A stretch of DNA of 64,000 nt, taken from contig NZ_CP019642.1 in assembly GCF_001999905.1 (NCBI RefSeq), positions 1 through 64,000 of the forward strand. The letters are read 5' to 3'. Both the position numbers and the translations under genes were made by a program. The notes below the pieces were generated by a model that was given only the letters and a program-made list of their open reading frames with translations, ran no database searches and was not told where the DNA came from. Shown in pieces: positions 5,476-44,714 of the stretch. Each line of letters starts with the position of its first letter. The stretch's first letter is position 1. Source of the DNA: Planococcus lenghuensis. Its GTDB lineage: Bacteria > Bacillota > Bacilli > Bacillales_A > Planococcaceae.

Positions 5476-5605
5476 ATGAATGGAGAATTCATATGGCGAA
5501 ATCCATCGTTCGACCGCCGTTTAATGTATCGCAAGAAAAATAGGTAAAACCCATATGTGCTTTGTAATAAAAAAGTGCAGAAGAATGCAACGGCGAATAC
5601 AGAAT

Positions 5606-5724
5606 GTTGCAACTTGACATGGAGCCTCTGCGAGTATGATTATAAGGTCAGGAAACCAGTTATATCAAGGGCTGGCTTCGCCTAGCAAGACGACCATACC
5701 CGCTACTCCATGTGAAGCCGCAAC
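5606..5724. repeat. 119-bp element bounded by imperfect 19-bp inverted repeats
   Basis: The arm at 5606-5624 (GTTGCAACTTGACATGGAG) pairs with 5706-5724 with only three or so mismatches. The interior of about 80 bases has a GGCTGGCTTCGCCTAGC hairpin-like core. It lies between the end of the upstream regulator operon and the end of gajB. It could be a MITE-like insertion, a recombination site or a bidirectional terminator. There is no T-run directly after either arm, which weakens the terminator reading. It also marks the left edge of the AT-rich defence operon. Confidence 0.45.
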
Positions 5725-5728
5725 ACTC

Positions 5729-6865
5729 TTACCCGTTTATCAAAAATTTATTTACCTTTAGTTTTCTTCCTTCTATTTCTAATGTGTATTCTTTAAAATA
5801 CTCACTCTCTTTTAAATTATGTGCTACGAATGCCAAACTATACCTCGGACGAGTAACTCCTACATAGTACTTTTCAGGGCTTTTTAAGGATTGATTTGGA
5901 TTTGTTAAGAACTTCTTTAGAGGTCCATTGGGAAATATCAATACCCGGTCTAGAGTCAGTCCTTTACTGACACCGAAATTTAACGCATTATAGCCTAGAG
6001 TATCAGTTCTCTTATCAAACCTTAATACAGCTGGTTGAAAGTGATTTACGTAGTCTTTTACGTCTTCTTTAAGTACCTGAAAAACGCCCATATATTCTTT
6101 CGAAGCTTCACTTATACTCGTTATAGGATCACCTGGATAAACTAAATTAGAAAAATCAGCAATATCTTGTATGAATCTTCTAGAACAGTTGCTGTTCAAT
6201 ACTTCTATTTCATGAGAGTCTTTAAGTGTCTCTAAATAATTAAAAACATTTCCTCCGCTCTTTTTCTTATTAGATTTAGCGTTGTGTGTTTTCAATGTAG
6301 ATTGCTTATAATCTCCAACACAATAAATTTTTATTGATGATAGTAATAATAATTCTAATAAATCAATGTCTCTACCAGCTAAATCTTGAAGTTCGTCAAT
6401 ATAAATACAAGAATAAATCTCTTCCAGCCTATTTATTACTGCCCCATTGGACATTAGATTTAGGTATATAGCAAGTTCTGAAGCATGATTCGCTTTTACA
6501 TCGTTATTACTATTTAGGTAATAAGGAATTGTATTTATTTTAGAGAAGTTTCGGCGTCCATAAATTCCTGAAAAATCAAATGAGTTTACCGCATTGATTT
6601 TATTCAAAAGGAAAACTTGGTATGGTCTGATCAACTCCCTCAAAACGAACTGAAACCAAGTATAAGTTCTTACATGTTCATCTAAGACTCCTGAATTTTG
6701 TTTAGCATATTCCTTTTTTAAAGAGTCCACACCCTTATTTGTATAAGAAACCATCAAGGTTTTTTTAGTAGAATCAGAAATATTAAGTGCGTCATTGCAT
6801 ATTCCCCATGTCTTTCCAGACCCTGCACAAGCGAGAACAATTTTATTTTTTAATTGCTTTTTCAA
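5729..6865 (-). CDS. gajB: Gabija-like UvrD/Rep-family helicase (GajB-like)
   Basis: A 378-residue superfamily-1 helicase-like ATPase. Visible motifs are the Walker A box ACAGSGKT (residues 12-19), motif II IYIDELQDLAG, motif III GDYKQSTL, an arginine motif NSNCSRRF, and the C-terminal SKGLTLDRVLIFP and KYYVGVTRPRYSLAFV segments typical of UvrD motifs V and VI. It follows gajA on the minus strand with a 23-base overlap and a TTG start (AAA AAG CAA follows), so it is probably translated by coupling. In Gabija systems GajB associates with GajA and senses DNA ends or nucleotide state during phage attack. At 378 residues it is shorter than the best-known GajB proteins (just under 500), although the motif set is complete. 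High AT content contrasts with the plasmid backbone. Confidence 0.82.
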   Translation of the reverse strand: MKKQLKNKIVLACAGSGKTWGICNDALNISDSTKKTLMVSYTNKGVDSLKKEYAKQNSGVLDEHVRTYTWFQFVLRELIRPYQVFLLNKINAVNSFDFSGIYGRRNFSKINTIPYYLNSNNDVKANHASELAIYLNLMSNGAVINRLEEIYSCIYIDELQDLAGRDIDLLELLLLSSIKIYCVGDYKQSTLKTHNAKSNKKKSGGNVFNYLETLKDSHEIEVLNSNCSRRFIQDIADFSNLVYPGDPITSISEASKEYMGVFQVLKEDVKDYVNHFQPAVLRFDKRTDTLGYNALNFGVSKGLTLDRVLIFPNGPLKKFLTNPNQSLKSPEKYYVGVTRPRYSLAFVAHNLKESEYFKEYTLEIEGRKLKVNKFLING

Positions 6866-8474
6866 TGTACTCGGGATATTTAATACATTCTTTCGAATTA
6901 AATACCCTCAACCCCCATTCAACTTTATTACTTAACATAAAACTCAATATTTCGTTCTCTGATTTATTTTGCATTGATCCATTTTTAGAGAGCGCGTTCT
7001 TAAATCTTGAAAAAGTCTCGGAATCACTCAAATTCATTGCTAAAATGCTCGGTTCGAGAGTATGCAAATCTTCATTTTCTTCATAATAAGCTTTAATCAA
7101 TCCATCGTTATTTCCTATGTAGTCTTTATATTTTTCAATAATGTTCTTGTCTATATCGTTGTCATTGTCCGTAATAATATTTAATGGTTTTTTTATCAAC
7201 AGGGCTAAGTCGCAATAACGTTTAAAAGCAAGAGAGTCAACTGTTATAACATCTGTAGCATCTTCGATCGGTAGTTTTCCGTATTTATCGAAATATGCAC
7301 GTTGGACGATTAATTCGTCTGTAGGGCCTTCTACTAAGATGATTTTTTTAGCGAGTAAAAACCTAAGAGTATTATAACCGGGTAGTTTTACAAAGAAGTC
7401 CATAGTTTCTGCATTCACGTCGTTTAAAAGTCTTACTTGACCTTGATGCAAAAGAATAATATTTTTTAGTCCTATTTTATTCGCTACAAAACTGCTGTGA
7501 GTTGATATAAAGACTTGCTTAGAATCATCACTACTAATCCTTGAAATCAATTTGGACATATTACTAAAAGACAAGTTATTTTCTGGTTCTTCAAAAAGAA
7601 TGAAATTAGATTTTTGAGAGTTTTCCTTCATAACTAATTCCATCTTAATCAAGTTTTGGCTTCCAAAGCCAATATCCTCAAACGGAGTGTGTTCAACATC
7701 TACAGAAACTTCGTTCTTCCAAGCATCAAGCACCTCTTCTCTCATGCTCAGTCTTATTTCTTTATCGTCTAAGCGAACACTGTTTCTTATTCTGTTATTG
7801 AGACTGGCCACACTTTCATTAGAGTTAAACTCATGTTTTATCTTTCTATAAGTTCTAGCTAAACTCACTTGCTCTTCACTTGTTAGATTTTCAGCTATAT
7901 TTGAACTAATAAACTTGTTTATTGAATTGCTATAGTCTTTTTTAGTAGTATCCATTACTGATACCTTAAAAGGCAAAGTTCTAAAAATGATTGGATTTCC
8001 TGAAAAATCATTCCAAGTAACATCATAAAACTCAACTGGTATATCATATATTTCTCCAGCTTTTAACATATCCACAAAAGCCTTAGAGTATATGGGATTA
8101 AATTTCACAGACATGTTTATACCCGGACAATCTTCACCTAAATAATTGTTTCTCCCTTTATATTCAGAATTGCTTCCAACGTCTTTGAAGTAAACTTCCA
8201 GAACGATGCTAGGAAGTTCTTCTATAGTACTTTCCGGGTTCTGTAACTGTAGAATAAAGTTTTGTCTAACTTGATAATTAAAGTAAGACGCCTTGAGTTG
8301 GCGTTCAAAGGGATAATTATTCATTTTACCGCTAATCACTATTTGAAGTATCTCTAATAGAGTACTTTTCCCTGAATCATTATTTCCGACAAAAATATTG
8401 TAACCTACGTTTACTTTAATGACTTGGTCCTTGAACAATTTATAATTTTTAATTAGTATTTTATCAATTTTCAT
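6843..8474 (-). CDS. gajA: Gabija-like OLD-family ATPase/TOPRIM nuclease (GajA-like)
   Basis: A 543-residue protein with two parts. The N-terminal ABC-type ATPase has the IKNYKLF start, Walker A GNNDSGKST (residues 30-38), and the late signature and Walker B region NFILFEEPENNLS followed by the switch His in ISTHSSFV. The C-terminal TOPRIM nuclease domain has ILVEGPTDELIVQRA (catalytic Glu) and ITDNDNDID (metal-binding Asp cluster). This OLD class-2 architecture with a UvrD-like gene directly downstream is the definition of Gabija, which nicks phage DNA when host NTPs fall. Together with gajB it forms a compact, AT-rich minus-strand operon, clearly different in base composition from the plasmid backbone and therefore likely acquired. 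Other OLD-plus-helicase defences cannot be fully excluded without comparison. Confidence 0.85.
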   Translation of the reverse strand: MKIDKILIKNYKLFKDQVIKVNVGYNIFVGNNDSGKSTLLEILQIVISGKMNNYPFERQLKASYFNYQVRQNFILQLQNPESTIEELPSIVLEVYFKDVGSNSEYKGRNNYLGEDCPGINMSVKFNPIYSKAFVDMLKAGEIYDIPVEFYDVTWNDFSGNPIIFRTLPFKVSVMDTTKKDYSNSINKFISSNIAENLTSEEQVSLARTYRKIKHEFNSNESVASLNNRIRNSVRLDDKEIRLSMREEVLDAWKNEVSVDVEHTPFEDIGFGSQNLIKMELVMKENSQKSNFILFEEPENNLSFSNMSKLISRISSDDSKQVFISTHSSFVANKIGLKNIILLHQGQVRLLNDVNAETMDFFVKLPGYNTLRFLLAKKIILVEGPTDELIVQRAYFDKYGKLPIEDATDVITVDSLAFKRYCDLALLIKKPLNIITDNDNDIDKNIIEKYKDYIGNNDGLIKAYYEENEDLHTLEPSILAMNLSDSETFSRFKNALSKNGSMQNKSENEILSFMLSNKVEWGLRVFNSKECIKYPEYIEKAIKK

Positions 8475-8671
8475 ATTTTGACCTCTTATTCGTATTAGTA
8501 ATCAATTTCAAATTTTACTATAACATACTATATATCAATCAATTCGAATTATTTAGAAGTTTAATTCTCTGAAATGTATAGTTAAAGACTCAATTTTCAA
8601 TTGAGATTTTTTACTAAATCTCGCTTAACTCCTATAATTTCTGTCCATAAAAGTATGTAGAAAAAAAGGAC

Positions 8672-8702
8672 GTTCGCAAAGTATTTGAATACATTTACGA
8701 AC
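8672..8702. other. Long-spacer variant of the GTTCG/CGAAC palindromic site
   Basis: GTTCGCAAA at 8672-8680 and TTTACGAAC at 8694-8702 form inverted arms with a 13-base spacer. The dyad is extended on both sides (AAAAGG.. and ..CCTTTTT), making a 20-bp-arm hairpin across 8664-8711 that could also terminate transcription. The half-sites are the same as those of the 8738-8763 site 40 bases further on, but the centre is 5 bp longer. It lies in the 320-base gap upstream of gajA. Confidence 0.5.
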
Positions 8703-8737
8703 GCCCTTTTTGTCATTATTCAATGTGTTGTTGAAAC

Positions 8738-8763
8738 GTTCGTAAACGTGTACTTTTACGAAC
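8738..8763 (+). other. dif-like recombination site candidate (site A)
   Basis: Arms GTTCGTAAA and TTTACGAAC are separated by 8 bases (CGTGTACT). Total length of 26 bases between arm ends equals that of the two sites flanking the TIR gene (41068-41099 and 42337-42368). The right 16 bases, GTGTACTTTTACGAAC, recur exactly at 15268-15283. It lies between gajA and the first IS21 element. See findings for the Xer-type recombination proposal. Confidence 0.5.
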
Positions 8764-8911
8764 ACTTTTATTCAAACGACTGTTAGTTGAAATTTCACTG
8801 TAACCGCTAGAATAAAATTGACAGTTTCCGCTAAGAACCCCTTTACACTTTCGCCACTAAAAATCAATCTTCCGGTAAACTAATTGTATTCGTTTAGTGG
8901 AGGTTGGGAAG

Positions 8912-10474
8912 TTGGAGGATCGGTTATTGTTATTCTTGAAAATTCAGCAGTTGAAAGAGAAGAAATTTAAAGTGGCACAGATTGCAGCGGAATTGAAAAT
9001 CTCAAGACCGACGGTCTACAAGTATCTGGAGATGGACTTTGAAGAGGTGCGGGAGTATATATCAAATCCCCATCGAAAAGCGAAGAAGCTGGATCCCTAT
9101 CGGGATTGGATTGTCGCTTGGCTGGAGGAGTATCCGCATTTAAGTGCAGCTCAGATCCAGGACCGGCTGCTGGAGCGCTATCCCGATCTGTCGATTGGGG
9201 AAAGCACAGTCCGGTTGTATGTAAGTGAAATCCGGGAGATCTACCAGATTGAGAAAAAGGCAGTGGTGAGGCACTACGAGGCTGTTCCTGAACAACCGAT
9301 GGGTAAGCAGCTTCAGGTTGATTGGGGAGAGACAAAGCAACGGACGACAGCGAAAAAAGAAGTGAAGCTCTACTTCATCGCATTCGTTCTGGCGCACTCC
9401 CGCTATAAGTATATGGAGTGGCAGGATCGGCCCTTCACGACACGTGATGCCATTCGTTGTCATGAGAATGCTTTCCGGTTTTACGGCGGCCGGCCAGAGG
9501 AAATCGTCTATGATCAGGACCACCTGCTTACAGTCAGCGAGAACGCCGGCGATCTCCTACTGACAGCTGAATTTCAGGCTTATGTAAAGGAGCGCAAATT
9601 CAAGATTCACTTATGCCGGAAGGCAGATCCTGAATCGAAGGGAATGATTGAGAACGTGGTGAAGTACATAAAAGGGAATTTCGCGGACAGTCGGGTGTTC
9701 AGTGAAATCAAAGACTGGAACAGGCGTGCATGGCAGTGGCTGGAGCGCACAGGGAATAAAAATGTCCATCATACAACGAAAAAAAGACCGGTCGCAGTGT
9801 TTCTCGTCGAAAAGCAACACTTACAACCCGTCTCTCCTCTACTTTCAAATGAAAGTACCGATGCCCCTAGTATAACAAGGAACGTAGGCAAGGACAATAC
9901 GATTCGTTACCGCTCAAACCGGTATACAGTGCCAACTGGAACCTACGGTTCCCTGCCTGAGAACCGGGTGATGATCGAAGTGAAAGGCAAGAAGCCAGGC
10001 ACGTTGCTTATCCGTAAGCCACAGGGAAGGGAAATCATCGCTGAGCACCCGATCAGTATGGAGAAAGGAAAGCTCATCCGTAACCGAAACCATACGCGTG
10101 ACCGGTCCAAAGGAATCGAATCAGCGAAAAAAGAAGTAATTTACAGCTTTACAGATTCAGAATCCGCTGCCGTCTACGTGGATGAGCTTTGCCAGCGATA
10201 CCCACGATACCGTCGCGACCAGCTGGCGATTCTTCAAAAAGCAATTCTGGAAGAATCGGAATGGGTAGACGAAGCGCTCCGGAAATGTGTGGCTGAGCAG
10301 CTCTACAGCGCAAATGATTTCCGTGATGTGGTTTCCCATTTAAAAAGCATGGACGCCGAATTGGACCGGCCGGTCCATGAACACCTGACGGTCCAGCCAG
10401 CCAGACCGGATATCTCTGTGAATATCCGTCCGCTCGACGCCTACACACGCATCTTGGAGGGGCATGCCATATGA
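8912..10474 (+). CDS. istA: IS21-family transposase IstA
   Basis: The frame opens at GTG 8897, but the ribosome site GGAGG at 8900-8904 favours TTG 8912 as the true start, giving about 520 residues. An N-terminal helix-turn-helix (FKVAQIAAELKISRPTVYKYL) binds the terminal repeats. The rve/DDE domain shows Asp in LQVDWGETK, Asp in IVYDQDHLL and Glu in ESKGMIENVVKYIK. The C-terminal beta-barrel region YRSNRYTVPTGTYG is typical of the family. It works with IstB, whose start overlaps this stop codon (ATGA at 10471). Catalyses cut-and-paste or replicative transposition of the element. Confidence 0.92.
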   Translation: MEDRLLLFLKIQQLKEKKFKVAQIAAELKISRPTVYKYLEMDFEEVREYISNPHRKAKKLDPYRDWIVAWLEEYPHLSAAQIQDRLLERYPDLSIGESTVRLYVSEIREIYQIEKKAVVRHYEAVPEQPMGKQLQVDWGETKQRTTAKKEVKLYFIAFVLAHSRYKYMEWQDRPFTTRDAIRCHENAFRFYGGRPEEIVYDQDHLLTVSENAGDLLLTAEFQAYVKERKFKIHLCRKADPESKGMIENVVKYIKGNFADSRVFSEIKDWNRRAWQWLERTGNKNVHHTTKKRPVAVFLVEKQHLQPVSPLLSNESTDAPSITRNVGKDNTIRYRSNRYTVPTGTYGSLPENRVMIEVKGKKPGTLLIRKPQGREIIAEHPISMEKGKLIRNRNHTRDRSKGIESAKKEVIYSFTDSESAAVYVDELCQRYPRYRRDQLAILQKAILEESEWVDEALRKCVAEQLYSANDFRDVVSHLKSMDAELDRPVHEHLTVQPARPDISVNIRPLDAYTRILEGHAI

Positions 10475-11229
10475 ACAAGTCTGTGAAAGAACTGCAGGAA
10501 CAGTTCCGTCAGCTTCGGCTGGCGGAAACAGCTGAGGAACTACCCCAACTTCTGCGAGAAGCTGAAAAAACATCGTGGACGTATCTTGAGTTCCTGGAAT
10601 CGCTGACTGCCTTCGAACTGGCGAAACGGGAAGCGAAAAGCATCGAGCGGCGAATGAAATGGGCGCGGTTCCCTTACGTGAAGACACTACAGGAATTCAA
10701 AGTGGAGGAACAGACCTCATTGAGCGAGCGCCAGCTTGCGCAGCTTAGGGAATTTAATTGGCTGGAACAGCGGTTTAACTTAATCCTGCTCGGCCCTCCG
10801 GGTGTTGGGAAGACATTTCTGGCCATCGGCCTGGGCATTGAAGCGATTCAACGGGGTTTCCATGTGAGCTTCGTAACAATGGGTGAATTGATGCGCCTCT
10901 TAAAGACGGAGGAATTCGTACATAAGTCAAAAGTACAGACGAAGCGGATTGAAGCTGCGGATCTAGTGATCATCGATGATTTGATGTACATGGCGATGGA
11001 TCAACGGGAGGCTAACCTTTTCTTCCAGCTGGTCAACCATTTGTATGAACGGAGTTCAATCATTCTGACCTCGAATAAGAGCCCGGATCAGTGGAGTGAA
11101 CTGATGGGCGATCAAGGTATTACGACCGCCATTCTGGACCGCCTGTTACATCGGGTAGAGGTTCTTCACATGGACGGTGACAGCTATCGGATGAAACATC
11201 GCCAGCATGTATTTTCAGCAAAAGTGTAA
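10471..11229 (+). CDS. istB: IS21-family helper ATPase IstB
   Basis: A 252-residue AAA+ ATPase related to DnaC. Walker A is GPPGVGKTF (about residues 109-117) and Walker B is LVIIDDLMY. A sensor segment IILTSNKSPDQW follows. IstB forms oligomers on target DNA, bends it and presents it to the IstA transpososome. Start ATG 10471 overlaps the istA stop. No disrupting mutation is visible. Confidence 0.92.
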   Translation: MNKSVKELQEQFRQLRLAETAEELPQLLREAEKTSWTYLEFLESLTAFELAKREAKSIERRMKWARFPYVKTLQEFKVEEQTSLSERQLAQLREFNWLEQRFNLILLGPPGVGKTFLAIGLGIEAIQRGFHVSFVTMGELMRLLKTEEFVHKSKVQTKRIEAADLVIIDDLMYMAMDQREANLFFQLVNHLYERSSIILTSNKSPDQWSELMGDQGITTAILDRLLHRVEVLHMDGDSYRMKHRQHVFSAKV

Positions 11230-11310
11230 ACGGCATCTTAGCGAAAACTGTAAAATTCCTCTTGACGGTTACATTCACCTTCTTAAAAGGTGGGGAATGG
11301 AAATGAAAAT

Positions 11311-12210
11311 TTAGATTTGAATCAAATTGCGCGCTTCCCCTAATCCCTTCTCCTCGCTCAACAGGTTCAAAAATTTAGTTAAAGGCGTTGCTACGTACTT
11401 GTCTTTCCGGTAAATGAAAAGGGTGTCGACTTTTCCGTAGGGATTTGGAAGCTTATGCTGTCTCAGTGTGCCACCATTTATCTGCTTGGCAACGACACTA
11501 TATGGAAGCATACTGATGCCGAGTCCAGCAGCTACACAACCGATAATCGCATCAAGGGTGCCAAATTCCATGATCTTGTTTGGCACGACTCCTTCTTGGT
11601 GCAGCCAGTCTTCCAGCTTTGCCCGGTAAGAACAGCCGGACCGAAAAACAAGCAGCGTCCGATTCTCAATTTCTTTTAGTGAGGACAAGGACGGTTGCTT
11701 CATATCGGTGATCAGCACCAATTCCTCTTCAAAAACAGTTTCTTGGATGATTTCCGGATGCTCAATAGGTCCAGATACAAAAGCTCCATCTAATTCATAC
11801 TGCAGAACGCCATGGAGGTGCTGTTCCGTCGGCCCTGTAATTATCGTCAGGTCCACGTCGGGATAGCCCTGATGGTATTTCGAAAGCAGCGCCGGCAAGC
11901 GGATGGCTGCAGTTGTTTCCATAGAGCCGATCATTAGCGGCCCTTTTGGTGTCTGGTCATCTTTCATCACCTTATTTGTTTCATCAATCAACCGAAAGAT
12001 TCTTTTTGCGTAAATCAATAAAGATTCTCCTTTTGACGTTAAGATAATGCCGCGATTGTGCCGATGAAACAAGGTGGTTTGCAGATGGTTTTCCAATTGT
12101 TGAATTTTCGTGGTGATGTTTGACTGCGCATAATTAAGCTCCCGCGCTGCAGCTGAAATGGTTCCCATTTTTGCGACTGTCTGAAACACCTTTAAGGCTT
12201 GTAAGTCCAT
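11311..12210 (-). CDS. LysR-type transcriptional regulator
   Basis: A 299-residue LTTR. Residues 1-60 are the winged helix-turn-helix (LQALKVFQTVAKMGTISAAARELNYAQSNITTKIQQLE), then a linker helix and a periplasmic-binding-protein-like effector domain from about residue 90 (LMIGSMETTAAIRLP...). It is divergent from the MFS gene at 12349, with about 140 bases between them, the usual LTTR arrangement, so it most likely controls the MFS / nitronate monooxygenase / tautomerase group. The effector is unknown; a nitroalkane or a related toxic compound is a guess from the neighbours. Its gene is bounded on the right side of the IS21 insertion, so its terminator may have been disturbed. Confidence 0.9.
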   Translation of the reverse strand: MDLQALKVFQTVAKMGTISAAARELNYAQSNITTKIQQLENHLQTTLFHRHNRGIILTSKGESLLIYAKRIFRLIDETNKVMKDDQTPKGPLMIGSMETTAAIRLPALLSKYHQGYPDVDLTIITGPTEQHLHGVLQYELDGAFVSGPIEHPEIIQETVFEEELVLITDMKQPSLSSLKEIENRTLLVFRSGCSYRAKLEDWLHQEGVVPNKIMEFGTLDAIIGCVAAGLGISMLPYSVVAKQINGGTLRQHKLPNPYGKVDTLFIYRKDKYVATPLTKFLNLLSEEKGLGEARNLIQI

Positions 12211-12348
12211 CGGAAAACTCCTTTAGTCTAAGTCATTTAGATATTTGGTATCTATAAAACAGATACCTAGTATCATTTATATGCATTATAACATATAGCA
12301 AAATGGAGTTATAATTATAGATGTAATGATTTTAGAGGAAGCAAAGGG

Positions 12349-13496
12349 TTGAATAAACCATCATTTCTTATAGTAGCAGGTGGGGTTATTTCATTGATCA
12401 TCGCCATGGGAATTGGGAGGTCTGCTTATACGCCTATTCTGCCGGCTACTTACTAGGTACTGTTCTAGCAGGTGTACTTCCCATAAAGAGGCACCGAACG
12501 TTTCTGTTAAGATTCCATCTTATCATCAGTATCTTAACCACTCTTTTCATGAGCTTCACCAGTTCGCTTATATTTCGGAATGTCTTACGCTTTCTATCCG
12601 GCTTCGCCAGTGCCGTTGTATTGGTCTTAGCTTCCGGCATCGTCCTGGATAAACACGCTTCGATAAACAAAACCCATTGGTCGGGTGTATTTTACGGAGG
12701 GGTTGGTTTTGGCATCTTCTTATCAAGCCTTCTTATCCCGAGGCTAAATGAGCCGTTTCATTGGGAAGGTCCGTGGATTGGATTGGCTGCGGTCAGTGGT
12801 TTTTTGGCTTTCTTCGTGTGGATTTGGCTGAAAGACACTACACAGACTGCCGGGAAAAAGGAAATAAAAGAAGCAGCGGTTCAAACACCGCCTGTAAGAT
12901 GGCTCCCTTGGTTGACGGTTGCATATGGCCTGGAAGGGTTGGGCTATATCGTCACGGGAACGTTCATCGTATCGATTGCCGAAAAAAGTCCTTCTTTCCA
13001 TAGCGATGCGACGTTAGTTTGGCTGGTGGCCGGATTGGCCGCAATTCCGTCCTGCATTCTGTGGTCTGTTCTCGCGAATAAGTGGGGCTATGTAAAGTCT
13101 TTGATTCTGGCCATGGTCTTACAGGCAATTGGTATCGTGATTCCGGTAGTTTGGGTCACGCAAACAGGGATCCTGATAAGCGGCTTGCTCTTTGGTGCGA
13201 CGTTTATGGGAATCATCACGCTGGCGACCACATTGAGGCGGCAAATGAATCCTGCGAAAAGCAGCCAGATCATTGGCAGCTTGACGGCTGTCTATGCGGT
13301 GGGGCAATTGATTGGGCCAAGTCTTGCCGGATTTATGTCATCGGCGACCCAAAGTTTTAACGCAGCATTGATTGGGGCGGCCGCAGTCGTTTTACTGGGA
13401 GCTTGTTTACTTGTAAACGGCATTTCATTTGAGAAAAAAGCGACTAAACTACAAAGCCAAGTCAATTTGCCTGTAGAAAACAGTGACTGGAAGTAA
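12349..13496 (+). pseudogene. YbfB/YjiJ-type MFS transporter, N-terminal deletion and frameshift
   Basis: A TTG start at 12349 (after AGAGG and AAAGGG) gives NKPSFLIVAGGVISLIIAMGIGR, then SAYTPILPATY and a stop at 12454. This is the conserved first membrane helix of YbfB/YjiJ transporters. In the adjacent frame the protein resumes immediately with AGYLLGTVLAG, the start of the second helix, and continues intact to 13496 with about ten more membrane helices. The join shows that some 20-30 residues between helix 1 and helix 2 are missing and the frame is lost. A shorter product from an internal ATG at 12549 would lack the first helices. So the transporter of this cluster is probably inactive. 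Family assignment rests on the FAYTPILP-like motif and MFS hydropathy. Confidence 0.75.
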
Positions 13497-13526
13497 AACA
13501 AAAAACAATTCGGGAGGATGAAGCAG

Positions 13527-14606
13527 ATGTTAACAAATACGCTCATTGAACTATTGAAAATAGAGTACCCCCTCGTACAAGCTCCTATGGCGGGTGGCGT
13601 CACCACGTCGAAACTGGTGGCTGAAGTTTCAAATGCTGGGGGTTTGGGTATGATTGGAGCCGGCTACCTGAATCCGCATCAAGCCCGGGAACAGATTCGG
13701 GAGACCAAGCAGCTGACTGCCAATCCTTTTGGCATCAACTTATTCGTTCCCGAGGAATTTGATGTAATGGATGGGGAAGTCAACTCAGCGAACCAAGCCT
13801 TGAAGCCCATCCGGCATCAATTGAATCTGCCACCAAAAGAGGGCTTTGAGTTTCCTGATGCAGCGAATGTCCAAGAAGCATTCGCCGATCACATTCAAGT
13901 TGTAATTGAAGAGAAAGTGCCCATTTGTTCGTTTACATTCGGCATTCCATCGGAGGACGTCATCGCTGACTTAAAACGGCACGACGTATTCTTAATCGGA
14001 ATCGCTACAACGGTCGAGGAAGCGATTGAAAATGAAAAAGCCGGAATGGATGCCGTTGTCGTGCAAGGAAGTGAAGCTGGGGGGCATCGAGGAAGCTTTA
14101 TGGACGGAAATCAGGAAAAACTGATTGGTCTGATGTCCTTGATTCCGCAGGTCGTCGATGAGGTAAGCATTCCCGTTATTGCAGCAGGGGGCATCATGGA
14201 TGGAAGAGGGCTGATGGCTTCCATTTGCTTAGGGGCAAATGGGGTCCAAATGGGGACAGCTTTTATGACATGCCAGGAGAGTGGAGCGCATGAAACACAT
14301 AAAGCAGCGATTCTCAACGCTCATGAAGATCAGACCGTCTTGACCCGTGCCTTTTCCGGGAAGTGGGCAAGGGGAATTGAAAACCGCTTCATCTCAGAAA
14401 TGAAAAGGCACGAACGGTTCTTGCCGGATTTTCCCGTCCAAAACGTCTTGACCAAAGATATACGCAAGGGTTCTGCTGGTCAAAAAACGCCAGAGTTTAT
14501 GTCACTTTGGTCCGGTCAAAGTCCAAGATTAGCTAAAAGACAGACCGCCAAGGAATTGATTCAAACCGTCATGGAAGATGTAAAGAGGATCTCTTCGAAT
14601 TTCTGA
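13527..14606 (+). CDS. Nitronate monooxygenase (2-nitropropane dioxygenase family)
   Basis: A 359-residue FMN-dependent TIM-barrel enzyme that oxidises nitronates. The start is ATG 13527, nine bases after GGGAGG; the ATG at 13518 abuts the ribosome site and is unlikely. Recognisable features are YPLVQAPMAGGVTTSKLVAEVSNAGGLGMIGAG at the N-terminus, QGSEAGGHRGSF (flavin phosphate region with the conserved GxEAGGHRG), VIAAGGIMDGRG and GANGVQMGTAF. The gene follows the decayed MFS gene by 30 bases and is followed by a tautomerase-family gene, so the three form one LysR-controlled unit for detoxifying a small nitro or keto compound. Length is normal for the family and the conserved motifs are intact. 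Confidence 0.9.
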   Translation: MLTNTLIELLKIEYPLVQAPMAGGVTTSKLVAEVSNAGGLGMIGAGYLNPHQAREQIRETKQLTANPFGINLFVPEEFDVMDGEVNSANQALKPIRHQLNLPPKEGFEFPDAANVQEAFADHIQVVIEEKVPICSFTFGIPSEDVIADLKRHDVFLIGIATTVEEAIENEKAGMDAVVVQGSEAGGHRGSFMDGNQEKLIGLMSLIPQVVDEVSIPVIAAGGIMDGRGLMASICLGANGVQMGTAFMTCQESGAHETHKAAILNAHEDQTVLTRAFSGKWARGIENRFISEMKRHERFLPDFPVQNVLTKDIRKGSAGQKTPEFMSLWSGQSPRLAKRQTAKELIQTVMEDVKRISSNF

Positions 14607-14680
14607 CTGGAAGTAAGGTTTCCATCCCTCACTGTAATAGGCACTTGAATCTAATCAAAATAGCTGAAGGAGTAAATGAT

Positions 14681-15073
14681 ATGCCATTGATGAAGATCGA
14701 CATAATGCGTGGACGCTTGAAGGAGGAAATTAAAGAGCTTTTGGACATCTCTTATGAAGTTATGCTGGAGACATTAGGTGTCCCGGAAAATGACCGGTAC
14801 CAAATTGTGACACAGCATGATGAAAATGAAATGATCATTCTGGATACGGGATTGGGATTTTCAAGGACTCATGAGGTAGTGGTGTTCAGTTTGGTCTCGC
14901 GTCCGCGAACGGTTGCCCAAAAAGAACTTTTTTATAAAGAATTGGCGATGAGATTAAACGAAAAGATGGGCTTGAATCCTTCAGATGTAATAGTTAACTT
15001 TTCAATCAACCAAGATGAAGACTGGAGTTTTGGTCAGGGAGAAGCCCAGTTCCTAATTGGAAAACTGAATTAG
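14681..15073 (+). CDS. Tautomerase-family protein
   Basis: A 130-residue member of the tautomerase (4-oxalocrotonate tautomerase / MIF-like) superfamily of the longer two-repeat type. I start at ATG 14681, eight bases after AAGGAG. Removal of Met exposes Pro1 (MPLMKIDIMRGR), the catalytic base. Other family features are the LKEEIKELLDISYEVMLETLGVPENDRYQIV segment and the VVVFSL strand. Position after the nitronate monooxygenase suggests a joint catabolic or detoxifying role. The substrate is unknown. Confidence 0.85.
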   Translation: MPLMKIDIMRGRLKEEIKELLDISYEVMLETLGVPENDRYQIVTQHDENEMIILDTGLGFSRTHEVVVFSLVSRPRTVAQKELFYKELAMRLNEKMGLNPSDVIVNFSINQDEDWSFGQGEAQFLIGKLN

Positions 15074-15209
15074 AGAGTTACATCCTTGACCTAAGTGCTT
15101 ATTTTAAGTATTACATTTGAAGCGATTTAACTTCAGTAATTTCAAAAAAATTTAAAGATAAAATCACTACCAGTTAACATATGAGGGCTTATCAGAAGTT
15201 GATTTTGTA

Positions 15210-15257
15210 CAAAGAGAGAGGAGAGGCTGAACGAGTACATTTTCTCTCTCTCTTTTT
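15210..15257 (+). terminator. Rho-independent terminator after tautomerase gene
   Basis: A purine-rich arm AAAGAGAGAGGAGAG (15211-15225) pairs with CTCTCTCTCTTTTTG (15244-15257), and the stem ends in a T-run. It closes the LysR-linked gene group. Its right end runs directly into site D. Confidence 0.6.
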
Positions 15258-15283
15258 GTCTGGAAAAGTGTACTTTTACGAAC
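15258..15283 (+). other. Half-conserved dif-like site (site D)
   Basis: The right 16 bases GTGTACTTTTACGAAC (15268-15283) are identical to the right part of site A at 8748-8763 and in the same orientation. The left arm (GTCTGGAAA) is diverged from GTTCGTAAA. One conserved arm plus core with a different second arm is the pattern expected where Xer-type modules have been joined. The region between A and D contains the IS21 element and the LysR / nitronate monooxygenase / tautomerase group. Confidence 0.4.
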
Positions 15284-15334: not shown

Positions 15335-15913
15335 TTATTGTTTATTCTTTTGTTGATGCCGAGTAACTTTTTTTCGATTGCCACATATTTTCATAGAACA
15401 CCATTTACGTCTTCCGTTAGAATCAATAAATAGCAGCACACACTCCGGATTTGCACACTGGCATATGCTTTCCAGTTTATTAGTCGCATATAGACTAACT
15501 GCGTTATAGGCTATTAATGAAACGAGCGCATCTACAGGTTTTCCTATTGGAATAGGTATTAAATTTTTACCTTTCAATTCATATGAAAAGGGAGCTTCTT
15601 TTATTAAAGATTGTAAGTATGAAATTAATCCAATTGAAGGCTTCCCTTCAGTCGCCATCTTCTCATATTCTCTCCGAAGCAACGAACGTATATCACGTAA
15701 AGGTGTTACTGCATCAACTGCCCATTCTTCTAGATTATTGTTAAATTGTTCATCAAGTAAGACATTATGACGTTTAAGCGTATTGATCCATTCAATTACA
15801 TGTTTTGATTCTGTTAATAAATCATGACGCGCCCCATGTCTAACTAACTCGGTATTGACTAGATCTAAAGAAACCTCTCCAGAAATAAGTGGAAATTTTG
15901 TTTCGACAGCCAT
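15335..15913 (-). CDS. CGNR zinc-finger (ABATE-domain) regulator
   Basis: A 192-residue protein. I take ATG 15913 (MAVETKFPLISGEVSLDLVNTELVRHGARHDLL), since a GGGGGG-rich ribosome site lies 10-15 bases upstream and the GTG at 15925 abuts it. The N-terminal part is an ABATE-like domain, and the C-terminus has the signature zinc finger CANPECVLLFIDSNGRRKWCSMKICGNRKKVTRH with the CGNR tetrad. CGNR proteins bind DNA and are usually local transcriptional regulators. It is divergent from the MFS transporter gene at 16031, with two copies of a 31-bp operator-like palindrome in between, so it probably controls both genes. Confidence 0.88.
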   Translation of the reverse strand: MAVETKFPLISGEVSLDLVNTELVRHGARHDLLTESKHVIEWINTLKRHNVLLDEQFNNNLEEWAVDAVTPLRDIRSLLRREYEKMATEGKPSIGLISYLQSLIKEAPFSYELKGKNLIPIPIGKPVDALVSLIAYNAVSLYATNKLESICQCANPECVLLFIDSNGRRKWCSMKICGNRKKVTRHQQKNKQ

Positions 15914-15935
15914 AAAATCACTCACCCCCCTCTTG

Positions 15936-15966
15936 TTAACCTATAATAAAACATTTGACAGGTTAA
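15936..15966. promoter_or_regulatory. Operator-like palindrome 1 (TTAACC-N19-GGTTAA)
   Basis: TTAACC at 15936-15941 and GGTTAA at 15961-15966 are exact inverse half-sites with a 19-base spacer. The right half overlaps the -35 box TTGACA (15955-15960) of the MFS promoter, and the left half abuts the start of the CGNR gene. Candidate binding site for the CGNR regulator. Confidence 0.6.
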
Positions 15967-15983
15967 TTAAAGAAATATATATT
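15955..15983 (+). promoter_or_regulatory. Sigma-A promoter of MFS transporter gene
   Basis: TTGACA at 15955-15960, a 17-base spacer, and TATATT at 15978-15983 make a near-consensus vegetative promoter reading into the MFS gene at 16031. It is enclosed by the two TTAACC-N19-GGTTAA palindromes, the geometry of repressor control. Confidence 0.65.
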
Positions 15984-15984
15984 A

Positions 15985-16015
15985 TTAACCAGTAAAGTTT
16001 TATTTAAGAGGTTAA
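15985..16015. promoter_or_regulatory. Operator-like palindrome 2 (TTAACC-N19-GGTTAA)
   Basis: The same half-sites as palindrome 1 recur at 15985-15990 and 16010-16015 with the same 19-base spacer. The four half-sites are therefore spaced at 25, 24 and 25 bases and alternate in direction. This copy covers the expected transcription start and leader of the MFS gene, ending just before its ribosome site GGAGGGG. Confidence 0.6.
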
Positions 16016-16030
16016 AATAGGAGGGGTTTT

Positions 16031-17263
16031 ATGCGAAGTTCTTTTTTAGGTCCTAAAATTGTAACAGTTACTTTTATTACACTAATGGGTGCGTTTGGAT
16101 TAAATCTAACAGCGGGACAATTTTTTGCTCCATTAAATGAAACGTACGGCTGGGATTTGACGATACTAAGCTTAGCTGTTTCGCTTAACATGATAACTTG
16201 GGGGATCTTTCAGCCAGTTATGGGAAAATTAATTGATCGTTTTGGCCCTAAACCGATTATTGCGTGTAGTGCTGCTTTAATGGGTATTGCTTTTATACTC
16301 TCAGCAACGACTACAGAAATATGGCAATTCTTTATTTATTATGGTGTATTAACTGCTATTGGATTTGCTGGCTGCGGCTCGATGGCCAATTCTGTTTTAG
16401 TCTCACGCTGGTATGTGAACAAAAGGGCCAAGATGCTTTCAAGAAGTTCCATGGGAATGAATATAGGTCAACTTGTGCTTCTGCCATTAACCGGATTTCT
16501 AATTGCCACTTCAGGATTTCGCTCAGCCTTTGTGGTGCTTGGTTTAATCATGCTGTTTTTAGTTGTTCCAGTAGTATTGATCTTTGTTAAAAATAATCCG
16601 TATGATGTTAATCAAATGCCTGATGGAGATTCAACGTCTGTATTCAAATCTATTAAAAGTGCCTCGTTGCAAGATGCATTACATAGTCGAGAATTTTGGA
16701 TTGCAACTATTGGATTTGCAACATGTGGATTCACATTATACTTAGTGACTATGCACCTACCGAATTTTGCGATTGATCTTGGAGGAGGAAAAGCTCTTGG
16801 GGGACAGTTGCTTGGTATAGCAGCACTGGCCAGTGCTCTTTCTATGTGGATAACCGGTCAGTTAACAAGAATCATCAGAAAAAAGAATTTATTACTAGTG
16901 CTTTATATTATTCGATTTATTGCTTTTGTTTGGATTGCAATGTCTCCAGGAATCTGGCAATTATATATTTTCGCTGTTGTATATGGGATTTCTTCGATGC
17001 CGATAATTCCGCTAGTGACTGGCATTATTGGTGATCGATTTGGTAAAAACGCTATGGGAAGCATCTTAGGTTTTAGTTGGTTATTACATCAAATTTTTGC
17101 AGCATCAGGTGTGTTCATAGGCGGATATCTTCGTTCTATTTCTGGAAGTTATAACAATGCGTTTTGGATGGGAGCAGCAATTTTAGCGCTAGGTATTGTT
17201 GTTACAGTTTTTATGAAGAAGGAAGAAGTAGCTTTACAGACCAAAGCAGTTCAAGCACAATAA
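16031..17263 (+). CDS. MFS transporter (OFA/oxalate-formate antiporter-like or MCP-like)
   Basis: A 410-residue integral membrane protein with about 12 hydrophobic segments. Typical MFS features are GWDLTILSLAVSLNMITWGIFQPVMGKLIDRFGPKPII (motif A region between helices 2 and 3) and the repeated GDRFGKNAMGSILGF in the second half. Start ATG 16031 follows GGAGGGG. The overall pattern (N-terminal FALNLTAGQFFAPL-like segment, long first half, RWYVNKRAKMLSRSSMG after helix 4) resembles OFA and monocarboxylate-type MFS carriers; the substrate is unknown. It appears co-transcribed with the DinB-like gene 16 bases downstream and is likely regulated by the divergent CGNR protein through two operator palindromes. 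Confidence 0.88.
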   Translation: MRSSFLGPKIVTVTFITLMGAFGLNLTAGQFFAPLNETYGWDLTILSLAVSLNMITWGIFQPVMGKLIDRFGPKPIIACSAALMGIAFILSATTTEIWQFFIYYGVLTAIGFAGCGSMANSVLVSRWYVNKRAKMLSRSSMGMNIGQLVLLPLTGFLIATSGFRSAFVVLGLIMLFLVVPVVLIFVKNNPYDVNQMPDGDSTSVFKSIKSASLQDALHSREFWIATIGFATCGFTLYLVTMHLPNFAIDLGGGKALGGQLLGIAALASALSMWITGQLTRIIRKKNLLLVLYIIRFIAFVWIAMSPGIWQLYIFAVVYGISSMPIIPLVTGIIGDRFGKNAMGSILGFSWLLHQIFAASGVFIGGYLRSISGSYNNAFWMGAAILALGIVVTVFMKKEEVALQTKAVQAQ

Positions 17264-17279
17264 AAGAGGAGTGATTGTG

Positions 17280-17756
17280 ATGGAAAATCACATTATAAAA
17301 CAGTTATGGATTGCAAGAGAAAATACAATTAATTTTGTGAAAAATCTGGAAGAAGCTACGAGTGAGCTTGTACCTGATCAGTTGAATAATAATATTAAGT
17401 GGAATTTGGGACATATATATGTGGTTAGTGAAAAGTTCTTATTTCATTTCATTGGAGAGAAAACAAAGTTTCCATCTAACTATCTCGCATTTTTTGATAC
17501 TGGAACTAGTCCAACTGACTGGAGAGCAAAGCCACCGACTCTAGAAGAGTTAATTGATGTTTTGAGCGAACAAATAAAAAGGATTAATTTAACTTTGTCA
17601 GGAAGGATGGATGAGCAAGTTAAAGAGACCTACACTACATCAACGGGATTTGAATTAATCATTGTGAAAGAGTTCGTTAGCTTTTGTTTATATCATGAAG
17701 GTATGCATTTTGGGGCGATAAAGAATACAAGTAAATTAGCCAAAGAAGTTTCTTGA
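17280..17756 (+). CDS. DinB-family protein
   Basis: A 158-residue four-helix-bundle protein of the DinB/YfiT fold (putative metal-dependent thiol S-transferase or hydrolase superfamily). Start ATG 17280 follows GAGGAG. The three histidines expected for the metal site are plausible in NLGHIYV near residue 45 and in YHEGMHFG near residue 140, which matches the usual H...HxxxH pattern. It follows the MFS gene closely, so it may act on the same compound, for example in bacillithiol-linked detoxification, a known role for some DinB proteins in Firmicutes. Substrate unknown. Confidence 0.82.
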   Translation: MENHIIKQLWIARENTINFVKNLEEATSELVPDQLNNNIKWNLGHIYVVSEKFLFHFIGEKTKFPSNYLAFFDTGTSPTDWRAKPPTLEELIDVLSEQIKRINLTLSGRMDEQVKETYTTSTGFELIIVKEFVSFCLYHEGMHFGAIKNTSKLAKEVS

Positions 17757-17789: not shown

Positions 17790-18415
17790 TTAAAAAAATT
17801 ATTAAAGGATGGTAAACTTTTATATGAAAAACCAAAGTCTAGTGTTGCACAGTATAACGATGCTTTTTTACTATCCCAAAAGTAAAAAATAGGTTATTCC
17901 ATACAAGGGCGCTTTTCCGGAGTAACGAAAAAAAGTCCAATTTCTCAATTATAATGCTGAGAAATTGGGCTTTTTAATATTTTAATTTCCTTAACGTTGT
18001 AAATCCGTATTTTCCTGATGCTATCCTTACAGTAAACAGGTTTTGATGGGATTAACCAAAGAAATGTAGAAGAAATAGTGGATTTAGGACTAGAGGTGGG
18101 TATGAGTAAAAAATAATTGATTATCTTCACTATTTCTCATTTAACCCATCATAGGAGACAAATTCAGTTAATAAAAAAGGTTATAAGTAATTAAAAGAAC
18201 CATTCTTCTGCTGACGGAGCAGAAGGACGAAAGATTGTACAACCAGAACACTTAGAGTCCTACAGAATGTTAGTTTACATATCATCAGGTTATCAGAAGT
18301 TGCTTGAAAAGAAGGGGATTTTCAGGAAAAAATCGAATTAGGATTATAGAAATAGAATGAAACCTTTAATCAAAAGTGCTTATCCTCATGAGCGTAAAGG
18401 GAGGGGAAACAGAAA
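17790..18415. other. Intergenic region with decayed gene fragments
   Basis: About 630 bases without an intact gene. Around 17920-17970 there is a GTCCAATTTCTCA...TGAGAAATTGGGCTTTTTA hairpin with a T-run that looks like a terminator. At 18039-18194 lies the degraded 3' part of a DinB gene (listed separately). The remaining 200 bases before 18416 are AT-rich and contain the GGGAGGGG ribosome site of the next gene; no other coding signal is visible. Confidence 0.55.
18039..18194 (+). pseudogene. Truncated duplicate of the downstream DinB gene
   Basis: The sequence from GATGGGATTAACCAAAG through AAGTAATTAAAAGAACC aligns base by base with the 3' end of the intact DinB gene at 18705-18871, including the TTTCTCATTTAACCCATCA block and even the stop codon and 30 bases beyond it. 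Substitutions and an internal stop (AAAAAATAATTG) show that it is not functional. The 5' half is missing. It is evidence for an old tandem duplication followed by decay of the upstream copy. Confidence 0.75.
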
Positions 18416-18856
18416 ATGATCAAGGAGATTGCGGATTATTACGGCGTGCTGCAGTATGTCCATAAAAGCATTGATAGTATGCTGAATGATTTAACTGCTG
18501 TTCAGTGGGTTGATACTAGAGGGGAATTCAATAATATCGCCTCGATAGTAGATCACATTACTGCTGTAGAGACTGGCTTCATGAAGATACTGGCTGGAGA
18601 ATCGATTGAAAAAATGCCAGCTGAATCCTTCAGGAACTCGGAATGGAATATCCAACACCTGAAAACAAATTGGAATGAAGCACTTTTATTCAGCAAGGAA
18701 GTGTTGACCGGCTTAACCAAAGAGAATTTGGAGGAAAAAGTGGATTTGGGGTTAGGAATGGATATGAGTAAAAGGCAGTTAATTATCTTTACCATTTCTC
18801 ATTTAACCCATCACAGGGGGCAAATTCCGTTAATAAAAAAGGTGCTAAGTAATTAA
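18416..18856 (+). CDS. DinB-family protein
   Basis: A 146-residue DinB-like four-helix protein, different from the one at 17280-17756. ATG 18416 follows GGGAGGGG with about 10 bases. The metal-site histidines are in IVDHITAVETGF near residue 42 and in FTISHLTHHRGQIP near residue 128, fitting the H...HxxxH pattern of the family. Genes of this type in Bacillales encode small thiol-transferase or damage-inducible proteins. A decayed copy of its 3' half lies 220 bases upstream. It appears to be monocistronic. Confidence 0.85.
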   Translation: MIKEIADYYGVLQYVHKSIDSMLNDLTAVQWVDTRGEFNNIASIVDHITAVETGFMKILAGESIEKMPAESFRNSEWNIQHLKTNWNEALLFSKEVLTGLTKENLEEKVDLGLGMDMSKRQLIIFTISHLTHHRGQIPLIKKVLSN

Positions 18857-19106
18857 AAGAACCATTCTTTGGCTGACTGAGCAGAACAATTAAAATACTT
18901 CAAGACCTAGAGAATCTTAGTTTATATATCACTGGTTGTCAAAAGTAAAGTTGAAGAGAAGCATAGATTGCTTAAAACAAAGCCATCCATGCTTTTTTCT
19001 ATGAAAAGCACTAATTTAATTGCTTTTATCTTTTGAAGTTTTTTAATGCTAAACTTATAGAAATGCAATACAAAACATTCTTTTTACACAGAAAGGACGA
19101 TTGAGA

Positions 19107-39851: not shown

Positions 39852-39894
39852 AACAGGGAGAGAACAACCGATTGGTTATTCTCTCCCTGTTTTT
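39852..39894 (-). terminator. Terminator of the XerS-like gene
   Basis: AACAGGGAGAGAA (39852-39864) and TTCTCTCCCTGTT (39879-39891) are a perfect 13-bp dyad. On the minus strand the stem is followed by a TTTTTT-rich stretch, and its right arm includes the recombinase stop codon. Confidence 0.75.
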
Positions 39895-41027
39895 AATTTA
39901 GGGGTTTCCTGAGTTTTTGAAGGTCTTCGTCTCTGTTCCATTTTGGTAAGGACTTCTTCGCCATCTCGATTCGATAAGTTGGTATAGAGGGAAGTGGCTT
40001 CAAAGTTGCTATGGCCCAGCTGGTCCCGCAGCAAAACCAGGCTGCCACCACTGCGGATGTAATCCGTCGCAAAGCTATGCCGCAGTTTATGCGGGCTGAT
40101 GCCTTCACTTTCCGAAAAAGCACCGGTGTATTTGGCGACGATCTTCTCGATTGCCCGTCTGGACAGCGGCTGAGCCGCGCCTTTGTATAAGGAGACGAAC
40201 AGGAAGGGGGATTCGTTTGCTCCGCGGTAGCGGGCTTCCCGCACCTCCATGTAGCGCCGCAGGTACTCAATTGCTTCCGGAAGCACGTTAATGGTATCCT
40301 CCTTGGATCCTTTTCGTCTCACGTCGATCATTTTCTTTTTCAGGTTCAGTTTTTTCGTCAGAATGCGCGCCAGTTCCCCGAGACGGAGACCGCTCCCGAG
40401 AAAAAGGTGGAGGATGGCCAAGTCGCGTTCCTTGTCCCGCAGGAAACGGGAACGGGCTACGGCACTGTTCAGTGTGTCGATGTAATCGTGTTCCACGAAG
40501 TGGAGGAAGTCATAGATCTCCGCGTCATTTAAGATGACGGAACTGATTTTTTGGGCACGCCGGCTGGCTGTCTCCTTTTTGGAATGGAGGACAATCTTGC
40601 TCATCACATTCCGGTCAAAGTAGGATTCCCCGGATTCTGTCTCCGTTTCTTTTGTTAAGTAGTTAAAGAGTGACTTCAAGGCATGGATGACATTCGCAAC
40701 CATTCCATCGCCCCGATTCTTCGTCTCGTTCTGCCCCTGGGTGATGGCTTCTTCGCGAAGGTGATCGATGTAGTGTTCGATGTCTTCCTTTCGAAGGGAG
40801 GCCAGCACGGTATAGGAGATAGAAGGGACGTCCGCAGTTTCCGCCAGGTTCTCCCGGATGAGCCAAGCAAAGAAGTGCTTGTAATGGTACAGGTATTGAT
40901 GCAGCGTATTTGGTGAAAGACCCGCCCGTTTTTTGGACCGGACATATTCCGCGACATAGAAGGGCATCTTCTTCAACTGCGTCTCGATTCGCTGCAAAAC
41001 GCGTAATTCTTCAGGTGTCATTGCCAC
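39876..41027 (-). CDS. XerS-like tyrosine recombinase
   Basis: A 383-residue recombinase. The N-terminal part (LPFYVAEYVRSKKRAGLSPNTLHQYLYHYKHFFAWL-like) is characteristic of the single-protein Xer system XerS of streptococci and lactococci. The catalytic domain has Arg in GSGLRLGELARI, Lys in VRRKGSKEDTI, HxxR in SPHKLRHSFATDYI, His in LGHSNFEATS and Tyr in TSLYTNLS. GTG 41027 is preceded by AAAGGAG. A dif-like site lies 40 bases upstream of its start (41068-41099), the arrangement seen for xerS and dif(SL). It is therefore the best candidate to act on the paired sites that flank the TIR gene, and may also resolve plasmid dimers. Confidence 0.85.
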   Translation of the reverse strand: MAMTPEELRVLQRIETQLKKMPFYVAEYVRSKKRAGLSPNTLHQYLYHYKHFFAWLIRENLAETADVPSISYTVLASLRKEDIEHYIDHLREEAITQGQNETKNRGDGMVANVIHALKSLFNYLTKETETESGESYFDRNVMSKIVLHSKKETASRRAQKISSVILNDAEIYDFLHFVEHDYIDTLNSAVARSRFLRDKERDLAILHLFLGSGLRLGELARILTKKLNLKKKMIDVRRKGSKEDTINVLPEAIEYLRRYMEVREARYRGANESPFLFVSLYKGAAQPLSRRAIEKIVAKYTGAFSESEGISPHKLRHSFATDYIRSGGSLVLLRDQLGHSNFEATSLYTNLSNRDGEEVLTKMEQRRRPSKTQETPKLKTGRE

Positions 41028-41067
41028 CGAGCAACAGCTCCTTTTCGTGTTAATCTATTCATCCTTT

Positions 41068-41099
41068 ATTGTTCGCAATATGCAATTTTAACGAACAAT
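41068..41099 (+). other. dif-like recombination site (site B)
   Basis: A 32-bp site with inverted outer arms ATTGTTCG and CGAACAAT. Its reverse complement-related partner lies at 42337-42368, on the other side of the TIR gene. The two differ at only a few central positions (ATATGCAATTTT against ATATATCAATTT) and have the same total length. It lies in the leader of the XerS-like gene. Confidence 0.65.
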
Positions 41100-41121
41100 G
41101 CTTTTAATTTTTCCTTTGGGA

Positions 41122-42285: not shown

Positions 42286-42336
42286 GGAATCACCTCATTG
42301 TAATTATATATTTCTATTGTAACAAATCTTCTTTTT

Positions 42337-42368
42337 ATTGTTCGTTAAATTGATATATTGCGAACAAT
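42337..42368 (-). other. dif-like recombination site (site C), inverted relative to site B
   Basis: Read on the minus strand it begins ATTGTTCGCAATATAT and ends TTAACGAACAAT, 32 bases, nearly identical to site B. Orientation is opposite, so recombination between B and C would invert the TIR gene; deletion or capture would need a site in direct orientation. Confidence 0.65.
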
Positions 42369-44269: not shown

Positions 44270-44486
44270 CAAAATCCCTACTTTTCTAAATTTTACTAGT
44301 ATTGTATCACCAGCTACTTATATTATCTAAGATTTTAAGAATAGAAAAACTGTTTGCACCTAATGGCCCGAAAAATACACATTGAATATAGAATTACCGG
44401 TTTCTTTTTATGATGCTGAACTCATTAACCTTCAATAAATCGGGCATTTTTTAATATGAAGCGTCAAAGAATAAAAAAGTACTTGG

Positions 44487-44555: not shown

Positions 44556-44603
44556 CGTTTAGTTTTTATTCTAGTTTGTACGACTAAATAAAAACTAAAA
44601 ACG
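44556..44603. repeat. Long AT-rich palindrome upstream of winged-helix gene
   Basis: CGTTTAGTTTTTATT (44556-44570) pairs with AATAAAAACTAAAAACG (44587-44603), with a two-base bulge and a 16-base loop. Without T-run context it is not a typical terminator. It may be an operator or origin element linked to the 44715 gene. Confidence 0.45.
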
Positions 44604-44714
44604 TCATTTTCATGCACATGTTTTTCAATATGACTACATAAAAGCGCATTTGTATGCTCATTTTAGTTCGTGCTATTCTATGGTTAACGATAATAAGAGA
44701 AAGAAGGAAATAGT

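Follow-up and report, generated by a model that had tools for sequence, protein, structure and literature searches.

Positions 8642-8763 of the window (the whole stretch of 64,000 nucleotides analysed here, which is the first 64 kb of the 89-kb replicon C3 of Planococcus lenghuensis; the other replicons are C2, of 329 kb, and the chromosome, of 3.7 Mb) probably form an orphan res site of the Tn3/Sin-like kind at the head of a one-way array of gene modules, which would be exchanged at the core of res subsite I by means of a small serine resolvase. This reading is drawn from sequence comparison across Planococcus and its relatives. In the mechanism that we propose, the orphan res site is the fixed head of the array, with the modules on its subsite I side. 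Strand exchange at the central GT of GTGTAC, between a full res site and a module bearing a half-degenerate subsite I, would bring modules in and take them out. The res copy of the window would still be active, with a resolvase encoded on C2 acting in trans on the window's plasmid, and the dif-like site found at module ends would provide a second exchange point, probably for the host XerCD.

A composite res site in the window

The initial annotation had described two independent GTTCG/CGAAC palindromes, at 8672-8702 and at 8738-8763 (site A). Both palindromes are there, but judged by their arrangement they are subsites II and I of one res site for a small serine resolvase:

8642-8671, + strand: res subsite III, decayed; left half CCATAAAAGT kept; abuts subsite II, as it does in 88 relatives (where it has 30 bp)
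8672-8702, + strand: res subsite II, the left, hairpin-like palindrome, 31 bp, GTTCGCAAAGTATTTGAATACATTTACGAAC
8703-8737, + strand: linker between subsites II and I, 35 bp
8738-8763, + strand: res subsite I (site A), 26 bp, GTTCGTAAACGTGTACTTTTACGAAC
8748-8753: core GTGTAC of subsite I, with the predicted crossover at its central GT (8750-8751)

The assignment of the left palindrome to subsite II and of site A to subsite I follows from a unit repeated in this genome, namely palindromes of 31 bp and 26 bp separated by a 34-bp linker and joined, where it is intact, by a third palindrome (30 bp) immediately left of the 31-bp one, since this unit has the layout of a Tn3-type res, in which subsite III lies next to the resolvase gene and is followed by II and then I (PMC7157771, PMC12217951). 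The window has all three subsites in the order III-II-I; I and II are intact, and III is heavily decayed, matching the consensus poorly and with its best register off by one base. The decay of subsite III counts against the resolvase-exchange reading. The centres of subsites II and I are 63.5 bp apart, or about 6 helical turns, which agrees with the rule that this distance spans an integral number of turns, from 4 to 7 (PMC12217951).

The claim that chance is an unlikely source of these motifs needs to be divided. By itself, the GTTCG...CGAAC pattern stands out little in the window (5 occurrences versus 1.86 expected, with 4 of 100 shuffles reaching 5), whereas the extended arms of 9 bases and the way in which the two palindromes are paired are far beyond chance: the extended-arm pattern occurs at 14 places in the 4.15-Mb genome and at none in the reversed control, and the composite of subsite II, linker and subsite I is found once in the window and in none of 60 Markov simulations.

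It had also been suggested that the left palindrome could be a terminator. Its hairpin is indeed strong (z = -8.6 on the - strand and -4.7 on the + strand) and is accompanied by T-runs on both strands, so that it has the stable hairpin followed by a T-run that characterizes terminators and may double as an insulator; a terminator scan flags 8738-8763 as well. Nevertheless, it is very improbable that the palindromes serve merely as intrinsic terminators or insulators, separating the gajA promoter from the DNA beyond it, given that the exact pair, its spacing and its core are kept in dozens of genomes, beside the resolvase and beside unrelated genes, and that terminators require neither a GTGTAC core nor a fixed 34-bp linker. 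An SOS/LexA box was dropped as a candidate, because, reasoning from known LexA boxes, the arms stand in the opposite order.

Resolvase genes and related res sites

Two units consisting of res and resolvase are present on the sister plasmid C2, each with its serine resolvase gene (PF00239) directly beside subsite III:

C2:44426-45040: res and resolvase unit, with the resolvase gene at 44594-45025
C2:318318-318953: res and resolvase unit, with the resolvase gene at 318333-318764

The solved structures nearest to this resolvase are those of the Sin and gamma-delta resolvases. No serine recombinase was found anywhere on C3, which suggests that the window res is an orphan requiring a resolvase in trans. 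Nor does a tyrosine recombinase gene (PF00589) lie beside the window res, the recombinase found beside such sites being PF00239.

Searching GTDB genomes with the composite pattern yielded 75 stretches, mainly from Planococcus and Planomicrobium, and within the family the composite is present in 44 of 261 genomes, with 0 control matches. The 88 unique composites are conserved over the whole length from III to I, and similarity drops off a few bases beyond either end; the linker between II and I measures 33-35 bp and contains T-tracts at intervals of about 10 bp, suggesting that it is bent. In 23 of the 88 relatives, as at the two sister-plasmid loci, a resolvase gene is found beside subsite III, in the relatives on the III side in the same orientation and mostly at -757 to -139; the window copy has no such neighbour.

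These features could be those of a common site for the resolution of plasmid or transposon multimers, served in trans, with the module boundaries described below being rare accidents, as in the shuffling mediated by Tn3-family resolvases. The III-II-I layout and the adjacency of the resolvase are as in Tn3-type systems, and res-mediated exchange of toxin-antitoxin modules has been published for Tn5501/TnTsp1 (PMC7157771). We regard this explanation as rather unlikely, however, as no resolvase was found adjacent to 65 of the 88 composites (some of which have too little flanking sequence to tell), many composites are chromosomal, and solo sites in serial one-way arrays co-oriented with replication are unexpected for a resolution site.

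Several observations concern the wider family of sites. Insertion sequences (IS21, IS66, ISL3) adjoin or interrupt several res sites, at window 8781-11290, C2:116088, C2:318070 and C1:1937389, the IS66 at the last being recognized solely by a shared end sequence; insertion at res sites has been reported for the transposons known as res hunters. Palindromes of 27 bp, with a core one base longer (GTTGTAC/GTTATAC), are found at C2:76414, C2:109793 and C2:329173, and perhaps represent a second specificity; the first two carry module-end sequence, and none of the three variants has a full res beside it. A phage origin of the composite was considered and dropped, as a search of viral contigs gave no match.

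One-way arrays of modules in Planococcus

As read from the genome sequences, arrays of gene modules begin with a full res site throughout Planococcus (46/46 genomes). Solo subsites I, whose right half is perfect and whose left arm is degenerate, lie on the subsite I side of the full sites and nearly always point the same way; such right-half sites are present in every one of the 46 Planococcus genomes, and scoring for solo subsites I on reversed sequence gave no matches. In the regions fetched, one full site is followed by 1-4 solo sites on the same strand, spaced 0.7-18 kb apart, and all neighbouring pairs within 20 kb (48/48) share a strand. In the complete chromosomes of two genomes (G119 and G140), the half-sites are on the + strand before the terminus, as located by GC skew, and on the - strand after it, and the arrays therefore point with replication; GC skew was measured in these two complete chromosomes, and the arrangement in the others is compatible with replication orientation.

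Many modules end in a dif-like 28-mer, a terminator-like hairpin and a half-degenerate subsite I, with the centre of the dif-like site 58-62 or 76-94 bp before the subsite I core. The 28-mer conserved before many solo sites reads (A)GTTTACATAT-N6-TTATCGGAAG(T), and its arms match the family's chromosomal dif (CTTCCTATAA-N6-TTATGTAAAC) at 18 of 20 positions; the dif of B. subtilis, with up to 3 mismatches allowed, is absent from the window's own genome, where the family's own dif was found instead. Dif-like sites are a feature of the I side, with 30 array-oriented and 1 opposite in 213 kb, whereas none occurs in the 182 kb covered on the III side. In many modules the dif-like site is present and an intact subsite I is lacking.

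The window itself can be read as such an array:

8897-11229, + strand: IS21-family istA/istB (Pfam rve, IstB_IS21); left end, from a terminal repeat search, about 20-70 bp from subsite I
11311-15073: cargo of the first module, LysR (- strand), MFS, nitronate monooxygenase and tautomerase (Pfam)
15172-15199, + strand: dif-like 28-mer, 11-6-11, AGTTAACATATGAGGGCTTATCAGAAGT
15214-15257, + strand: terminator-like inverted repeat ending in a T-run, from sequence
15258-15283, + strand: solo subsite I at the first module boundary, with degenerate left arm GTCTGGAAAA and perfect right half GTGTACTTTTACGAAC
15335-17756: cargo of the second module, CGNR/ABATE regulator (- strand), MFS and DinB (Pfam)
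18272-18300, + strand: dif-like site with no intact subsite I after it
18416-18856, + strand: cargo of the third module, DinB family (Pfam)
18919-18946, + strand: decayed dif-like site with 3 substitutions

The end of the first module (15172-15283) thus comprises the dif-like site, the terminator-like repeat and the solo subsite I, the repeat abutting the half-site. Searching the window cargo against plasmids revealed no close plasmid relative, which counts against the exchange reading as regards the window's own junctions. The search hit 382 plasmid records, mostly from Enterococcus, and in most of those listed the match was to about 130 bp at 17894-18029, with 76-91% identity and in some cases beside recombinase genes.

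Exchange at subsite I cores

Comparisons among related genomes indicate that cargo has been exchanged at the subsite I cores. Among the 203 usable ends of alignments of at least 300 bp and at least 85% identity, 57 fall on the subsite I core in both sequences, compared with 21 of 3550 in shifted controls; 17 of the 203 fall on the centre of a dif-like site in both sequences (shifted controls, 3 of 3550). Both counts include orthologous pairs, and the ends are not all independent. When the DNA between its full core and its solo core is taken out, the locus L226 aligns with L237 over 2665 bp, and between the intact L226 and L237 identity is 80% on one side and 94% on the other; a stretch of two modules (9.3 kb) is thus present in one genome and absent from the other exactly between cores, and the sides have different histories. 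Furthermore, a module of 1576 bp that is 99% identical in L223 and L234 begins at a solo core in the former and at the full res in the latter, and an identical segment of 1038 bp, which has a dif-like site at one boundary and a core at the other, occurs in three contexts. The initial annotation had proposed to look for switches of cargo at exactly these positions, and the break-points above and the L226/L237 pair supply them. It had also named the pattern that would speak against exchange, namely a motif always associated with gajA and never with cargo changes; a plasmid search with 5600-8800 gave a different picture, with the res site (~8641-8776) matched in most of the matches listed, and gajA and gajB in none.

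From the break-points, subsite I is predicted to be the resolvase crossover site in the window, and we infer that it is the resolvase that performs the exchange. The main doubt on this point arises from the solo sites, which stand without subsites II and III, and from the 20 of 46 Planococcus genomes without a close resolvase (E<1e-40), which was found in the other 26 though half-sites occur in all. Canonical Tn3 resolvase has been reported to be unable to recombine a pair of subsites I in the absence of II and III (PMC12217951).

A serious rival, or a partner, of resolvase-driven exchange is the movement of modules by XerCD at the dif-like sites, as a Bacillota version of the Acinetobacter dif modules, with the subsite I copies as passengers or accessories. 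This possibility, to which we give appreciable but lesser weight, draws on the near identity of the module site arms to the chromosomal dif, on the alignment ends at dif-like centres, on the start of the identical 1038-bp module exactly at the dif-like site in all three contexts, and on the many modules that lack an intact subsite I yet have a dif-like site. However, more ends coincide with the subsite I core, including junctions between full res and solo sites at which the full res has no dif-like site, and 30 of 31 dif-like sites are co-oriented, unlike the alternately oriented sites of Acinetobacter.

Defence genes on the opposite side

Beside the res site lies a Gabija operon, whose neighbourhood to such sites the initial annotation had read as a sign of repeated use of one exchange system:

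5729-6865, - strand: gajB (PADLOC GajB, 7e-88)
6843-8474, - strand: gajA (PADLOC GajA, 2e-161), on the subsite III side and outside the array

The operon is not the exchanged cargo, the modules being on the subsite I side. Most of the 138 module proteins are acetyltransferases, regulators, transporters, NUDIX, DHFR and APH proteins, and few match defence models, versus 11 of 20 tested proteins on the III side of resolvase-bearing sites that match PADLOC models, a difference that is a lead rather than a test because the counting rules differ between the two sets. The III-side matches are to Lamassu, type I restriction, AbiTii, a DrmD-like protein and PDC models (candidates only), and C2:42772-44351 is a CBASS system. 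A defence-rich III side was seen at C2:42772-45040 (L033), L056, L063, L065, L071, L079, L080 and L116.

Relation to known systems

The sites share with the res of Tn3-family and Sin-type systems the three dyad subsites III-II-I with III next to the resolvase gene, the use of subsite I as the crossover site and the II-I distance in whole helical turns; they differ in being mostly orphan and chromosomal, and in having solo subsites I without II and III downstream. Resolvase-mediated transposon shuffling with a break-point in subsite I was reportedly described by Kholodii in 2001. Such shuffling, including that of Tn5501/TnTsp1 (PMC7157771), resembles the present case in the exchange of cargo and in the position of the break-point, but involves single exchanges between full res sites, as opposed to serial arrays with solo half-sites. 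The pdif modules of Acinetobacter are likewise gene modules bounded by 28-bp dif-like sites (11-6-11), on plasmids and chromosomes. Those modules are bounded by sites in alternating orientation, whereas here the sites share one orientation almost throughout, and many are followed, at 58-94 bp, by a half-site for a serine resolvase.

The likeness to integrons is in the one-way row of promiscuous modules behind a fixed site, in the recombination site at the end of each module and in the cargo (acetyltransferases, DHFR, APH, NUDIX); the difference is in the small serine resolvase and res in place of IntI/attI, and in module ends made of a dif-like site, a terminator and a half-site. With some reserve, we favour the broader reading that this is an integron-like cassette system built on unrelated machinery, in which the res would be the attI-like head and modules carrying a dif-like site, a terminator and a half-subsite I would be inserted serially in one orientation, in every Planococcus examined and oriented with replication where this could be checked, with defence genes on the opposite side and the modules shared by the resolvase and probably XerCD.

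The res site itself is a known kind of site; for the array built on it, that is, a resolvase-based cassette array, or for dif modules in Planococcaceae, no description was found in the open-access literature searched. Small serine resolvases are not known to act beyond resolution and inversion. If the resolvase inserts modules at res, these sites would constitute an integron-like gene-capture platform of Gram-positive bacteria that current annotation misses, raising the questions of how a resolvase uses solo half-sites and why the arrays follow the direction of replication. The platform may also have fed clinically important resistance, as the linezolid resistance gene cfr lies beyond subsite I of a near-identical res on staphylococcal and Gram-negative plasmids. 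In Staphylococcus aureus pSA8589 (L245) and Pasteurella pFJ6683 (L246), the res site has 89.5% identity to the one on C2 and is accompanied by its resolvase, and cfr follows subsite I at a distance of about 0.55 kb.

A separate tyrosine integrase system

Two further 26-bp sites, B and C, bracket a TIR gene elsewhere in the window:

39876-41027: tyrosine integrase, beside sites B and C
41071-41096: site B, 26 bp
42340-42365: site C, 26 bp

Site A had been assigned the same geometry as B and C, and all of them to the repeated use of one exchange system. The length of 26 bases is indeed common to them, and site-specific exchange is borne out, but B and C have no GTGTAC core, their flanks differ from those of site A, and their neighbour is a tyrosine integrase instead of a serine resolvase. 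Membership of A in the system of B and C was rejected on these three grounds, and the region 39876-42365 and its counterparts on C2 are a separate, tyrosine-recombinase cassette system. It is accordingly highly unlikely that sites A and D are targets of the integrase at 39876-41027, despite the shared GTTCG/CGAAC ends and length. B/C-type sites recur beside an integrase in C2 and in G017, with asymmetric GCAA/TTAA arms and no GTGTAC, whereas A/D-type sites recur beside the serine resolvase, and A and D lie 31 kb from the integrase and not about 50 bp upstream of it.

The B/C layout recurs twice on C2, with an integrase at 230502-231611 and Fic/DUF3800 cargo, and with an integrase at 64067-65176 and a gene that is weakly ApeA-like; G017 has a related site close to an integrase. 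The protein encoded at window 43538-44272, at a distance of two genes from the TIR gene, matches PADLOC PD-T7-4 (1.7e-73). Further along the window, positions 58264-59056 consist of 54-nt tandem repeats containing AGTAGAAATATCTACTT.
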